A stretch of 42,775 bases of DNA from Caulobacteraceae bacterium (GTDB lineage: Bacteria; Pseudomonadota; Alphaproteobacteria; Caulobacterales; Caulobacteraceae). The position numbers and the translations under genes were made by a program. Below are positions 22,195 to 25,585 of this stretch, piece by piece; the stretch's first letter is position 1, and each line of letters opens with the position of its first letter. Location: assembly GCA_025352085.1 (NCBI GenBank), contig JANXUA010000165.1, forward strand, positions 1 to 42,775, read 5' to 3'. The notes beneath the pieces are model-generated. The model ran no database searches. It saw nothing but the letters and a program-made list of their open reading frames with translations, and was not told where the DNA came from.

Positions 22195-23988
22195 TCACGT
22201 TCCCAGCGCCTCGCGGCGGGCCTCAAGGGTCAGCCATTCGTCCTCGGCGGCGGCGAGATCGGCGCGCGCCTTGTCCAGGGCGTGCGAGGTGCGGGTGAAG
22301 GCGGCGACGTCGCGGGCGTAGAGATCGGGATCATGCAGCGCCGCGTCATACCGCGCGATGGCATCCGCGAGTTTGGACATCAGCGCTTCGAGTTGGGTCA
22401 GGCGATGTTGATCCTTGAACGACAGCTTGACCGCCGGCGGCGATGCGCGCGGCGGGGTAGGTTTGGCGCGTTTCGGCGGCGCGCCGCTTTCCGGGACGGC
22501 GAGAAAGCCCGGGTTCTGCTGCAGAAAATCCGACCAGCCGCCGGGGGTTTCGACCACCTTTCCGCGACCATCCAGGGCGATGGTCGAGGTCGCCAGCCGG
22601 TCAATGAAATCGCGGTCATGGCTGACCAGGATCAAGGTGCCGGCGTAGTCGCTCAGCATGTCTTCCAAAAGTTCGAGGGTCTCCATGTCCAGATCGTTGG
22701 TCGGCTCATCGAGCACCAGCACATTGGACGGCTTGGCCAAGGCGCGGGCAAGGAGCAGCCGGTTGCGCTCGCCGCCGGAAAGGCTGGTCACCGGCTGGCG
22801 CAACTGATCGTCGCGGAACAGGAAATCCTTGGCGTAGGCGGCCACATGTTTGGGCCGGCCCTGCACCATGATCTGATCGCCGCCCAGCGGCGCGAGAGCC
22901 TGCGTTAAGGTCATGTCGTTGGTCAGGTCCGCCCGCGCCTGATCGACATAGGCGATGTCGAGATTGGCGCCGAGCCGCACCGACCCGGCGTCCGGCGCGG
23001 TCTCGCCCAACAGGATCTTCACCAGGGTGGTCTTGCCCGCGCCGTTGCGGCCGACGACAGCGACCCGGTCACCGCGCTGGATGCGGGTGGAGAACCCAGC
23101 CAGCAGGGGTCGGCCACCGTAGGCCTTGGAAATTCCCTTGGCTTCAAGCACCCGTTTTCCCGACGGCGCGGCGACACTGGCCGCCGTCAGGGTCATGTCC
23201 CCGCGCGCCAGGCGCAGGCGCTCGGCCTTTTCGGCGCGCAGGGCGACCAGCCGTCGGCGGCGCCCTTCATTGCGCGCGCGTCGAGCGGTGACCCCGAAAC
23301 TCATCCAGTTCTGTTCGCGCTCGACGAACTTTTGCAGCCGCCGGTCCTCCTCTGCCTCGGCGGCGGTGATCTTTTCGGCCCAGGCGTCGAATTTGGCGAA
23401 ACCGTCGTCCATCCGCCGCACCCGCCGGCCCTCCAGCCAGAATGAGGTGTTGGTGACCCGTTCCAGAAACGCCCGGTCGTGGCTGACGATCAGCATGGCG
23501 GCGCGGCTGCGGGTCAGGCGCGCCTCCATCGCTTCGATGGCGACGATGTCGAGATGGTTGGTCGGCTCGTCGAGCAGGAGGACGTCGGGCGCCTCGGCGA
23601 AGGCGCGCGCCAGGGCGGCGCGGCGGGTCTCGCCGCCGGAGAGACCCACGGTCGAGCGCGCCGGGTCCATCTCGAACGCCATCAACGACGCCTCCGCCTC
23701 GTGCGCCGCCGCACCACCGGCGACGGCGAAATCCAGCAGGGTGGCGCCGGTGATCGCCGGCTCCTGGCTCACCAGCACCACCTTCAGGCCCGGACTGAGA
23801 AAGCGGTCGCCGGAATCGACGGCGGTGAGGCCGCCGAGGATGCGCAGCAGGGTCGATTTGCCGGCGCCGTTGCGGCCGACGAGGCAAGCGCGCGCCCGCG
23901 CCTCCAGCGCCAGATCGACGCCGTCGAACAGCCAGCGCGGGCCATCGGCGAGACGCACGTCGCGCAGGGCGAGAAGGGGCGGCGCCAC
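22195..23988 (-). CDS. uup: ABC-F family ATPase, Uup-like
   Basis: A 597-residue soluble protein with two tandem ABC ATPase domains and no membrane segments. The first has LVGRNGAGKSTLLRILGGLT and DVLLLDEPTNHLDIVAIEAM; the second has VVGRNGAGKTTLVKILLGET and NVLVLDEPTNDLDMETLELL. The linker between them (about residues 200-260) is charged and helical, as in the P-site tRNA-interaction motif of ribosomal ABC-F factors. A C-terminal extension (from about residue 510) ends in a predicted coiled coil, which is Uup-type. Uup proteins bind branched DNA and ribosomes. The start is GTG at 23988 without a visible ribosome site. It precedes the importer genes by 71 bases; a functional link is not implied. 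Confidence 0.92.
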   Translation of the reverse strand: MAPPLLALRDVRLADGPRWLFDGVDLALEARARACLVGRNGAGKSTLLRILGGLTAVDSGDRFLSPGLKVVLVSQEPAITGATLLDFAVAGGAAAHEAEASLMAFEMDPARSTVGLSGGETRRAALARAFAEAPDVLLLDEPTNHLDIVAIEAMEARLTRSRAAMLIVSHDRAFLERVTNTSFWLEGRRVRRMDDGFAKFDAWAEKITAAEAEEDRRLQKFVEREQNWMSFGVTARRARNEGRRRRLVALRAEKAERLRLARGDMTLTAASVAAPSGKRVLEAKGISKAYGGRPLLAGFSTRIQRGDRVAVVGRNGAGKTTLVKILLGETAPDAGSVRLGANLDIAYVDQARADLTNDMTLTQALAPLGGDQIMVQGRPKHVAAYAKDFLFRDDQLRQPVTSLSGGERNRLLLARALAKPSNVLVLDEPTNDLDMETLELLEDMLSDYAGTLILVSHDRDFIDRLATSTIALDGRGKVVETPGGWSDFLQQNPGFLAVPESGAPPKRAKPTPPRASPPAVKLSFKDQHRLTQLEALMSKLADAIARYDAALHDPDLYARDVAAFTRTSHALDKARADLAAAEDEWLTLEARREALGT

Positions 23989-24076
23989 TGTTTCAGAAAT
24001 CCAGGATCATGTTGGAGCCGCGACTATCGGGGTTCGTCGGCGGGGTCCAGCGATCCGACGCGTCGACGGCGGGTTC

Positions 24077-24192
24077 TGGCGGTAGGCCGGCGGTGAATTG
24101 GCGGTAAATTGGCGGTCAATTGGCGGTCAATTGGCGGTTTTTTGGCATGTTTTGGCGGTTGAATGGCGGTCCAAAGGCGGTTGCTTGGCGGT
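24077..24192. repeat. Array of about 11 head-to-tail 11-bp units (TGGCGGT + ~4-bp spacer)
   Basis: TGGCGGT or a close variant begins at 24077, 24088, 24099, 24110, 24121, 24132, 24143, 24153, 24164, 24175 and 24186: spacing is 11 except one step of 10. Eight are exact. The others are CGGCGGT, TGGCATG and AGGCGGT. Spacers are mostly AT-rich (gaat, aaat, caat, caat, tttt). Decayed units may continue to 24214. It lies in the 439-base gap between the divergent uup-like and DegT-like genes, 89 bases from the first. The period is not a multiple of three, so this is not a coding repeat. Confidence 0.9.
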
Positions 24193-24255
24193 GATTGGGT
24201 GGCCTTCTGGCGGGTCTCGCCTACAATCAGAAACCTTTAGTGAATTGTAATACCT

Positions 24256-24272
24256 AGATATTGTGAATATCT
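24256..24272. promoter_or_regulatory. Perfect palindrome AGATATT-GTG-AATATCT
   Basis: A 7-3-7 perfect inverted repeat in the AT-rich part of the gap before the DegT-like gene, about 155 bases from its start. It has the size and symmetry of a dimeric repressor site. No regulator is identified. Confidence 0.45.
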
Positions 24273-24366
24273 CCATTCCGAGGGGCGGCGGTTTTCAACG
24301 CTTGCCTCCTGTAACAGCTCGACACGGCGGCGCATCACCCGCCCAATGGGCAAACCAGACGATACA

Positions 24367-24381
24367 TTGCATAATGCAATA
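24367..24381. promoter_or_regulatory. Perfect palindrome ATTGCAT-A-ATGCAAT
   Basis: A 7-1-7 perfect inverted repeat ending 46 bases before the DegT-like start codon, a usual operator distance. It is much more AT-rich than its surroundings. The binding protein is unknown. Confidence 0.5.
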
Positions 24382-24427
24382 TGATCGCGCGCAGGTCAAG
24401 ATTACCTTCGCATGTTATGAGTTCGAC

Positions 24428-25585
24428 ATGACCCTCCCCTTCATCGATCTGGCCGCCCAGCAGCGGCGTCTGCGCCCGCAGCTCGACGCGGCGATCGCCG
24501 TGGTTCTCGATCACGGCGCCTATGTCATGGGCCCCGAAGTCGCGGCCTTCGAACAGGCCTTGGCGGCGTTCTGCGGCGCCAAACTGGCCCTGAGCTGCGC
24601 CAACGGCACCGACGCCCTGGCCCTGCCGCTGATGGCCTGGGACGTGGGCTTAGGCGACGCGGTGTTCTGCCCCAGCTTCAGCTTCACCGCGACCGCCGAG
24701 ATCATGCCGTGGACCGGCGCCGCGCCGGTGTTTGTGGATATCCGCCCCGACACCTACACCCTCGACCCGGCGGCGCTGGAGAACGCGATCCGGGCAATCA
24801 AGGCCGAAGGCAAACTGAGACCGCGCGCCATCATCGCCGTCGACCTGTTCGGCCAGAGCGCCGACTATCCGGCCATCGCCGCCATCGCCCGCGCGCACGA
24901 TCTCAAATTGATTGCCGACAGCGCGCAGGGTTTCGGCTGCACGCTGAACGGCCGGCACCCGATCCATTGGGCCGACGCCGTGACCACCAGCTTTTTTCCG
25001 GCCAAGCCGCTGGGCGCCTATGGCGACGGCGGCGCGGTGCTAACCAACAACGCGGCGCTTTGGGAGCGGATGGATTCCCTGCGCATCCACGGCAAGGCGA
25101 CGCCCGCCGATCTGGCCGGCCAGACATTCGCGCACGAGGCGAAATACCTTTCCGCCCGCGTCGGCATGAACAGCCGCCTCGACACCTTGCAGGCGGCGAT
25201 CCTGCTGGTGAAACTATCGGTGTTCGCCAAGGAAATTGCTTTGCGGGGCGCCGTCGCCGACCGCTATGCGCACGGCCTCAAGGGCTGCGTAGCCGTGCCG
25301 CCCAAGGTGATCCAAGGCGGCGTTTCGACCTGGGCGCAATACACCATCGAACACTCCAACCGCGACGGCCTGGCCGCGCACCTGAAGACCTTGGGCATTC
25401 CGACGGCGGCCTACTATCCCGTGCCGTTGCACCAACAGACCTGCTACGCCGATTATCCCGCGCCGGGCGGTCTGCCGGTGACGGAGGCCGCGGCGGCCCG
25501 CGTCCTCAGCCTGCCCATGCACCCCGACCTCGACGAAGAAACGCAGGACCGGATCATCCAGGCGGTGCGGGCGTTCAACGGCTAG
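24428..25585 (+). CDS. DegT/DnrJ/EryC1-family PLP-dependent aminotransferase
   Basis: A 385-residue fold-type I aminotransferase of the nucleotide-sugar group, which aminates keto-sugars bound to a nucleotide for O-antigen, glycan or glycolipid synthesis. The N-terminus MTLPFIDLAAQQRRLRPQLD is the family start, which fixes the ATG at 24428 although a longer frame continues upstream. Cofactor residues: CANGTDALALPLMA (phosphate cup), the Asp region IAVDLFGQSADYPAI then LIADSAQGFGCTLNG, and the PLP-lysine loop TTSFFPAKPLGAYGDGGAVL. It ends with the substrate-side HIP-like block IHGKATPADL and YPVPLHQQTCY. It stands alone without sugar-epimerase or transferase neighbours in the window. The sugar is unknown. 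The upstream region holds two palindromes and the 11-bp array. Confidence 0.92.
   Translation: MTLPFIDLAAQQRRLRPQLDAAIAVVLDHGAYVMGPEVAAFEQALAAFCGAKLALSCANGTDALALPLMAWDVGLGDAVFCPSFSFTATAEIMPWTGAAPVFVDIRPDTYTLDPAALENAIRAIKAEGKLRPRAIIAVDLFGQSADYPAIAAIARAHDLKLIADSAQGFGCTLNGRHPIHWADAVTTSFFPAKPLGAYGDGGAVLTNNAALWERMDSLRIHGKATPADLAGQTFAHEAKYLSARVGMNSRLDTLQAAILLVKLSVFAKEIALRGAVADRYAHGLKGCVAVPPKVIQGGVSTWAQYTIEHSNRDGLAAHLKTLGIPTAAYYPVPLHQQTCYADYPAPGGLPVTEAAAARVLSLPMHPDLDEETQDRIIQAVRAFNG

Follow-up and report, generated by a model that had tools for sequence, protein, structure and literature searches.

A helically phased array of 11-bp repeats in a Caulobacteraceae genome probably serves as the platform on which a TerS-like, ring-forming protein binds

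Introduction

What could a run of eleven 11-bp direct repeats be doing in the gap between two divergent host genes? The question is raised by the window analysed here, a stretch of 42,775 nucleotides that makes up contig C23 of the draft genome G000 (3.0 Mb), taken as a Caulobacteraceae MAG. The gap lies between a gene for an ABC-F type ATPase (22195..23988, - strand) and one for a DegT/DnrJ/EryC1 aminotransferase (24428..25585, + strand). An initial annotation of the DNA had likened the repeats to the sites of OmpR/PhoB-class response regulators or of CtrA, with a minisatellite among the alternatives. Here the array is compared with others in the same genome, in a sister species (G003) and across the genus, and its likely function is considered.

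Results

The array in the window

The array occupies 24077..24192 and reads TGGCGGT on the + strand, or ACCGCCA on the - strand, which is the strand of the cassette described below. Its steps are six of 11 bp, one of 10 bp and three of 11 bp. The number of units and their spacing, as given in the initial annotation, are correct and far beyond chance, although only eight of the eleven units are exact copies of TGGCGGT; two are altered in the first base only (CGGCGGT and AGGCGGT) and one is degenerate (TGGCATG). Degenerate units on either side (CGGCGGG at 24067 and TGGCGGG at 24209) widen the array to 24067..24215 on the same strand. It is called by TRF as 11/22-bp arrays. A search for TGGCGGT-N4-TGGCGGT with at most two mismatches gave 11 matches in the window, eight of them within the array, compared with a mean of 0.75 and a maximum of 4 in 100 dinucleotide shuffles. 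When the window was scanned in 1-kb pieces the array reached a chain score of 18.5, against 2.5 for the best other piece. There was no Rfam match in 23900-24500. The AATT-N7-AATT pattern that had been pointed out is present in a few of the middle spacers, but is no feature of the array family. Similarly, the divergent gap is real but its link to the DegT gene is incidental, as other copies adjoin trpS, dnaG, a DEAD-box helicase gene and others.

A scattered family of arrays

A search of the genome and its relatives for TGGCGGT at an 11-bp period, as the initial annotation had proposed, revealed further arrays with conserved cores in both G000 and G003. Those in G000 are on contigs C35, C143, C164, C65 and C152, with a weak array on C43 and a short one on C156; approximately nine are found in G003. 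The window array is one of a scattered family and not an isolated promoter feature. Across six G000 arrays (65 units) the GGC of the core is invariant and the remaining core bases carry 0.8-1.7 bits, compared with about 0.2 bit per base in the spacers, and the steps are of 11 bp (53 times) or 10 bp (12 times). The combination of fixed cores, free spacers and a near-helical period, seen at several loci, bears out the earlier description of a helically phased multi-unit array and argues for a protein-binding platform, not a minisatellite. A genome-wide scan with the bare TGGCGGT pattern was set aside; it returned mostly identical-spacer minisatellites of unrelated bacteria (e.g. L080, L101 and L120, with an 11-bp period), which are a separate phenomenon.

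Arrays are part of a cassette with a shared operator

Nearly all arrays belong to a cassette with a promoter whose -10 element lies within the palindrome TTGCATWWTGCAA, which in the + orientation of the window lies on the downstream side of the arrays. Exact copies of TTGCATWWTGCAA number six in G000, all six at arrays, while a reversed-pattern control gave one match per strand. In six of seven G000 cassettes the -10 sits inside the palindrome on the opposite strand, together with a TTGA-type -35 and a 17-bp spacer. Read in the - sense, the order is thus promoter/operator, then a gene or a short spacer, then the ACCGCCA array. The window copy of the palindrome, TTGCATAATGCAA, is at 24367..24379 and overlaps a putative -10 (CATTAT, 24371..24376, - strand), with a putative -35 (TTGACC, 24394..24399, - strand) at a spacer of 17 bp, both assigned by consensus. 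The candidates for a common regulator of this operator motif (TTGCANNNTGCAA) are XRE-type repressors. Two XRE repressor genes, 69% identical, were noted (L174, at about 15970 on G000 C9, and L252, 114-431), each preceded by several TTGCAT-type sites. The same operator promoter (TTGACATATAAATTGCGTTTTGCAA) precedes a gene for a 227-aa protein of no known kind on G000 C97 (L190, 3512-4195), which is another likely member of the regulon.

The linked gene encodes a relative of the terminase small subunit

In intact cassettes the promoter drives a gene for a relative of the terminase small subunit (TerS), and the 3′ end of this gene is where the array begins. This is the case on C35 and C156, where the array starts within or directly after the 3′ end of the gene. 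The protein matches Pfam Terminase_2 weakly, below the cut-off, and the PHROG terminase small subunit at 1e-7. Two classes can be distinguished. Class B genes encode a C-terminal EEW-type motif and are followed by terL in five of nine cases. Class A genes lack the motif, are followed by terL in none of 29 cases and carry the arrays (class split, Fisher p 0.005). A class A profile matches PDB entry 21di, ‘Pam5 small terminase’, over residues 1-85 with an E value of 6e-18, and the N-terminal HTH domain is therefore homologous to TerS by both the PDB and the PHROG match. The entry has nine such chains, and homology to it suggests that class A TerS forms a ring oligomer. Moreover, the closest relatives of the class A protein on viral contigs lie directly before TerL genes. 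The EEW-type motif presumably contacts TerL; since class A proteins are without it, this contact may be missing from them, which leaves packaging itself as a possibility. The operator type described above is common to class A terS, class B terS, terS-terL pairs and a portal/scaffold/capsid module.

At two loci (L191 and L192) the array extends into the coding end of terS, where it encodes a proline-rich, repetitive C-terminus (PPSDR.PTAI-like), as would arise by growth of an array at the 3′ end of a gene. Two loci (L245, 11196-13028; L252, 1927-4227) encode, on the strand of class B terS and upstream of it, large proteins that have a similar W-x-x-G-x-A-P-G-P start region and no family match.

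Linkage of terS and array across the genus

Genes for TerS-like proteins of this type were found in 12 of 16 genomes of the genus, with up to 11 in G023. After many of these genes comes an array with a different core: CCTGCC in G020 and G023, GCGCC in G008 and G011, GCTGCC in G020 and G021, and GCGGCC on C63 of G003. A core-agnostic test found a chain of at least seven units at 10/11-bp steps for 18 of 25 class A genes and for none of nine class B genes; other spacings and shuffles reached at most six units. The seven remaining class A genes had no clear array of at least seven units in the stretch tested. Class A arrays have 7-14 units, follow the gene or overlap its last codons, and have cores of CCGCC, CTGCC, GCGCC, GGCC or CCCC according to clade. 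A GCC-chain test gave a concordant result, with at least six units in 16/32, compared with 0-1 for control step sizes and roughly 1% of random windows. By a crude Mantel test, HTH sequence and array core did not correlate significantly. A 120-genome sample of the order gave few matches beyond the genus; these were more distant, and none showed arrays of this kind.

Copies without a gene

No terS adjoins the array in the window copy or in 13 further copies from G000 and G003, and the C143 copy is also without the operator promoter. In the window the gene was either lost or never present. The conserved cores of gene-less copies suggest that these arrays are still bound in trans by a class A TerS of the same genome with the same core. 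Gene-less copies contain an AT-rich box with a consensus near CAATANGATA, mostly 12, 23 or 34 bp from the array. These distances keep the box in register with the helix (Rayleigh p about 3e-6), a pattern that might also result from common descent of copies whose first units have eroded. The box of the window (TATTACAATTCACTAAAG on the - strand, 24235..24252) is likewise in register with its array. Comparison of the IHF consensus WATCAANNNNTTR with the 14 gene-less copies gave one perfect match and eight with one mismatch (combined p 2.6e-5), several of the best matches being outside the box; the resemblance of the box to an IHF site is tentative.

Gain and loss of cassettes

Two G023 cassettes share a 696-bp block that is 92% identical and ends at the last array unit, and their flanks are unrelated. 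The region upstream of trpS also differs between species. In G004, the nearest relative, glnD and trpS are adjacent with a gap of about 105 bp and no cassette; in G000 the region is about 1.4 kb with a ParE-like gene, a dodecin gene and a gene-less cassette; in G003 it holds a terS cassette with another core. The ABC-F gene of the window is preceded by different genes in the relatives compared. Taken together, the differences at the trpS and ABC-F loci and the block shared in G023 point to cassettes being gained and lost as units. Neither target duplication nor a transposase was seen at the cassettes.

Among neighbouring genes, type III CRISPR-Cas genes (Cas6, Csx1/CARF and Cas10; L135, 218-4711) lie on the promoter side of the dnaG cassette of G003, and toxin genes of the BrnT, HigB, ParE and Gp49 families are near several cassettes (L129, L130, L132 and L192).

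Packaging genes in the genus

On C142 of G003, terS is followed by terL, a P22-type portal gene, a possible scaffold gene and a Phage_capsid_3 capsid gene. This portal gene is split by an in-frame TGA (L245, 8347-8369), reflecting a pseudogene, recoding or an assembly error. In other genomes the portal-scaffold-capsid block is free-standing, with host-like genes around it, and in three of these genomes the portal gene is preceded by the operator motif. Nine of the 16 genomes of the genus have a portal gene, G000 not being among them. A search of G000 found no complete TerL (PF03237) or portal (PF16510). However, the start of a TerL gene, preceded by the operator and covering 36 residues, lies at the end of G000 contig C133; its product is 87% identical to the G003 TerL over 23 residues.

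Discussion

We propose, with a probability of roughly 0.6, that a ring-forming protein of the TerS type binds the array as a helically phased platform, and that the array is probably one of the dispersed pac-like sites of a packaging regulon of phage origin. That class A TerS binds it is the firmest part and appears very probable; use of the array in packaging has odds that are even or slightly better. At the level of sequence, the anatomy of the cassette, the homology to TerS, the linkage of gene and array, the common operator motif, the pattern of cores and spacers and duplication as a unit are established; ring formation, wrapping, the identity of the repressor and binding in trans are inferred, and recruitment of TerL and packaging are the least certain parts of the explanation. 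In the proposed mechanism, the TerS ring would present its HTH domains outward, one per helical turn, and DNA would wrap along the ring via units spaced 10-11 bp. A complete element would consist of the operator-controlled promoter, class A terS and the array. The window copy would retain promoter/operator, AT box and array, and its ligand in trans would be the class A TerS encoded on C35 (761-1237), where the array has the same ACCGCCA core. Given their common operator type, the cassettes, the terS-terL pairs and the portal/scaffold/capsid module would be expected to be switched on together, probably via loss of an XRE-type repressor. The most likely role of the arrays would then be as dispersed pac-like sites that steer headful packaging of chromosomal DNA from chosen places. 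The main objections to use in packaging are that class A has no TerL-type tail and that the G000 assembly contains no complete packaging module. The non-significant Mantel test, the seven class A genes that showed no clear array and the RcGTA TerS, which is without an HTH domain and known pac sites (PMC6854486), also weigh against the proposal as a whole. A more ambitious version, which we put at somewhat less than an even chance, is dispersed, addressable gene transfer. Here the many TerS-array cassettes and solo arrays of a chromosome would mark the starts at which a co-regulated head and motor of phage origin package host DNA, each TerS variant having its own core; arrays would be natural wrapped-TerS sites, and cassettes would have spread either as minimal packaging parasites or as a targeting layer owned by the host.

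Among the rival readings, class A TerS could be a repurposed or poison subunit that binds arrays, joins the real TerS, or both. It would thereby prevent, slow or redirect packaging, whether by the resident phage-like module or by phages that invade, as a form of immunity or decoy. The missing EEW-type motif of TerL-linked TerS, the operator type common to classes A and B, the CRISPR-Cas locus beside one G003 cassette and the toxin genes near others would all fit. A pure inhibitor, however, would need no array at its own 3′ end, no set of up to 11 copies with distinct cores and no gene-less arrays retained in trans, and we regard this reading as unlikely, if the best of the rivals. Far less probable is that array and operator promoter form a leader or control region of the following host genes (ABC-F, trpS, dnaG), bound by an OmpR/PhoB/CtrA-type or other regulator. 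In the cassettes read, the array-adjacent gene is often co-directional. Nevertheless, the arrays go with terS and with no class of host gene, most relatives have no array upstream of the same host genes, and we know of no response-regulator consensus that the core and spacing match. The 5′ leader was dropped as a main reading because arrays begin where terS ends and, in some cases, the gene that they face is convergent. Moreover, the core varies by species and cassette, and so the response-regulator or CtrA site suggested by the initial annotation finds no support.

Two further readings are more improbable still. A partition or nucleoid-anchoring site of the parC-ParR kind, or a set of replication iterons, would look alike in its 11-bp direct repeats and AT-rich block. 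The cassettes read, though, showed no ParR/ParM, ParA or Rep gene; the linked protein is a TerS relative, and the cassettes are numerous and variable among species. Least probable of all is a neutral minisatellite enlarged by slippage. The identical-spacer TGGCGGT repeats of unrelated bacteria prove that such tandem repeats occur, but in the arrays described here spacers vary between adjacent units and between loci while cores are constant, and a partner gene, an operator and an AT box are constant companions; the minisatellite alternative of the initial annotation is thereby set aside.

The preferred reading, a TerS binding platform, can be set against known systems. Plasmid R1 parC has about ten 11-bp direct repeats bound by a ring or arc of ParR, at a single locus and with a ParM motor; it is alike in its 11-bp repeat array, but its protein family is unrelated to TerS. 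In cosB of phage lambda, three gpNu1 R sites with uneven spacing stand with an IHF site in one phage genome. If the AT box is an IHF site, the likeness lies in repeated TerS sites beside a site for a bending protein, but the cassettes have no identified cleavage site. Satellites of the SaPI/PICI kind carry their own TerS and pac, and the TerS redirects packaging by the helper to their own DNA. The cassettes differ in being only about 0.3-0.7 kb long, with no integrase, replication or other satellite genes. The headful phages P22, SPP1 and Sf6 also have a recognition site in or beside terS and an HTH domain, and the co-regulated portal found here is itself P22-type. However, the present family differs in its 7-15 phased units, its many chromosomal copies, the absence of a linked terL and a class A protein without a TerL-type tail. 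Gene transfer agents (RcGTA and CcGTA) resemble the present system in having packaging genes of phage origin spread over several loci of alphaproteobacterial chromosomes, but here there is an HTH-bearing TerS with array sites, the head genes are P22-type and promoters are separate. The TerS of RcGTA has no HTH or specific DNA-binding domain and no known pac sites (PMC6854486, PMC7947584), and CcGTA is acted on by XRE-family repressors (PMC9632790, PMC10688885). No description of dispersed TerS-array cassettes was found in the literature searched, coverage of which was incomplete.

How TerS recognises DNA, whether by wrapping, threading or interdigitation, is unsettled, as sites are short and binding is weak (PMC9611059). 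Known pac sites are either short (22 bp in P22) or consist of few contact points (SPP1) (PMC9611059). In the solved HK97 TerS-DNA complex the DNA, bound at a site of 15 bp, runs through the ring channel and is not wrapped (PMC11331095), which we count against the wrapped-ring reading. Phased arrays of 7-15 units beside terS offer a natural substrate for a direct test of wrapping with one HTH per turn. Should packaging make use of the sites, they would provide specific starts scattered on a bacterial chromosome, in contrast to the random packaging of known GTAs, and the arrays would predict which genes move.
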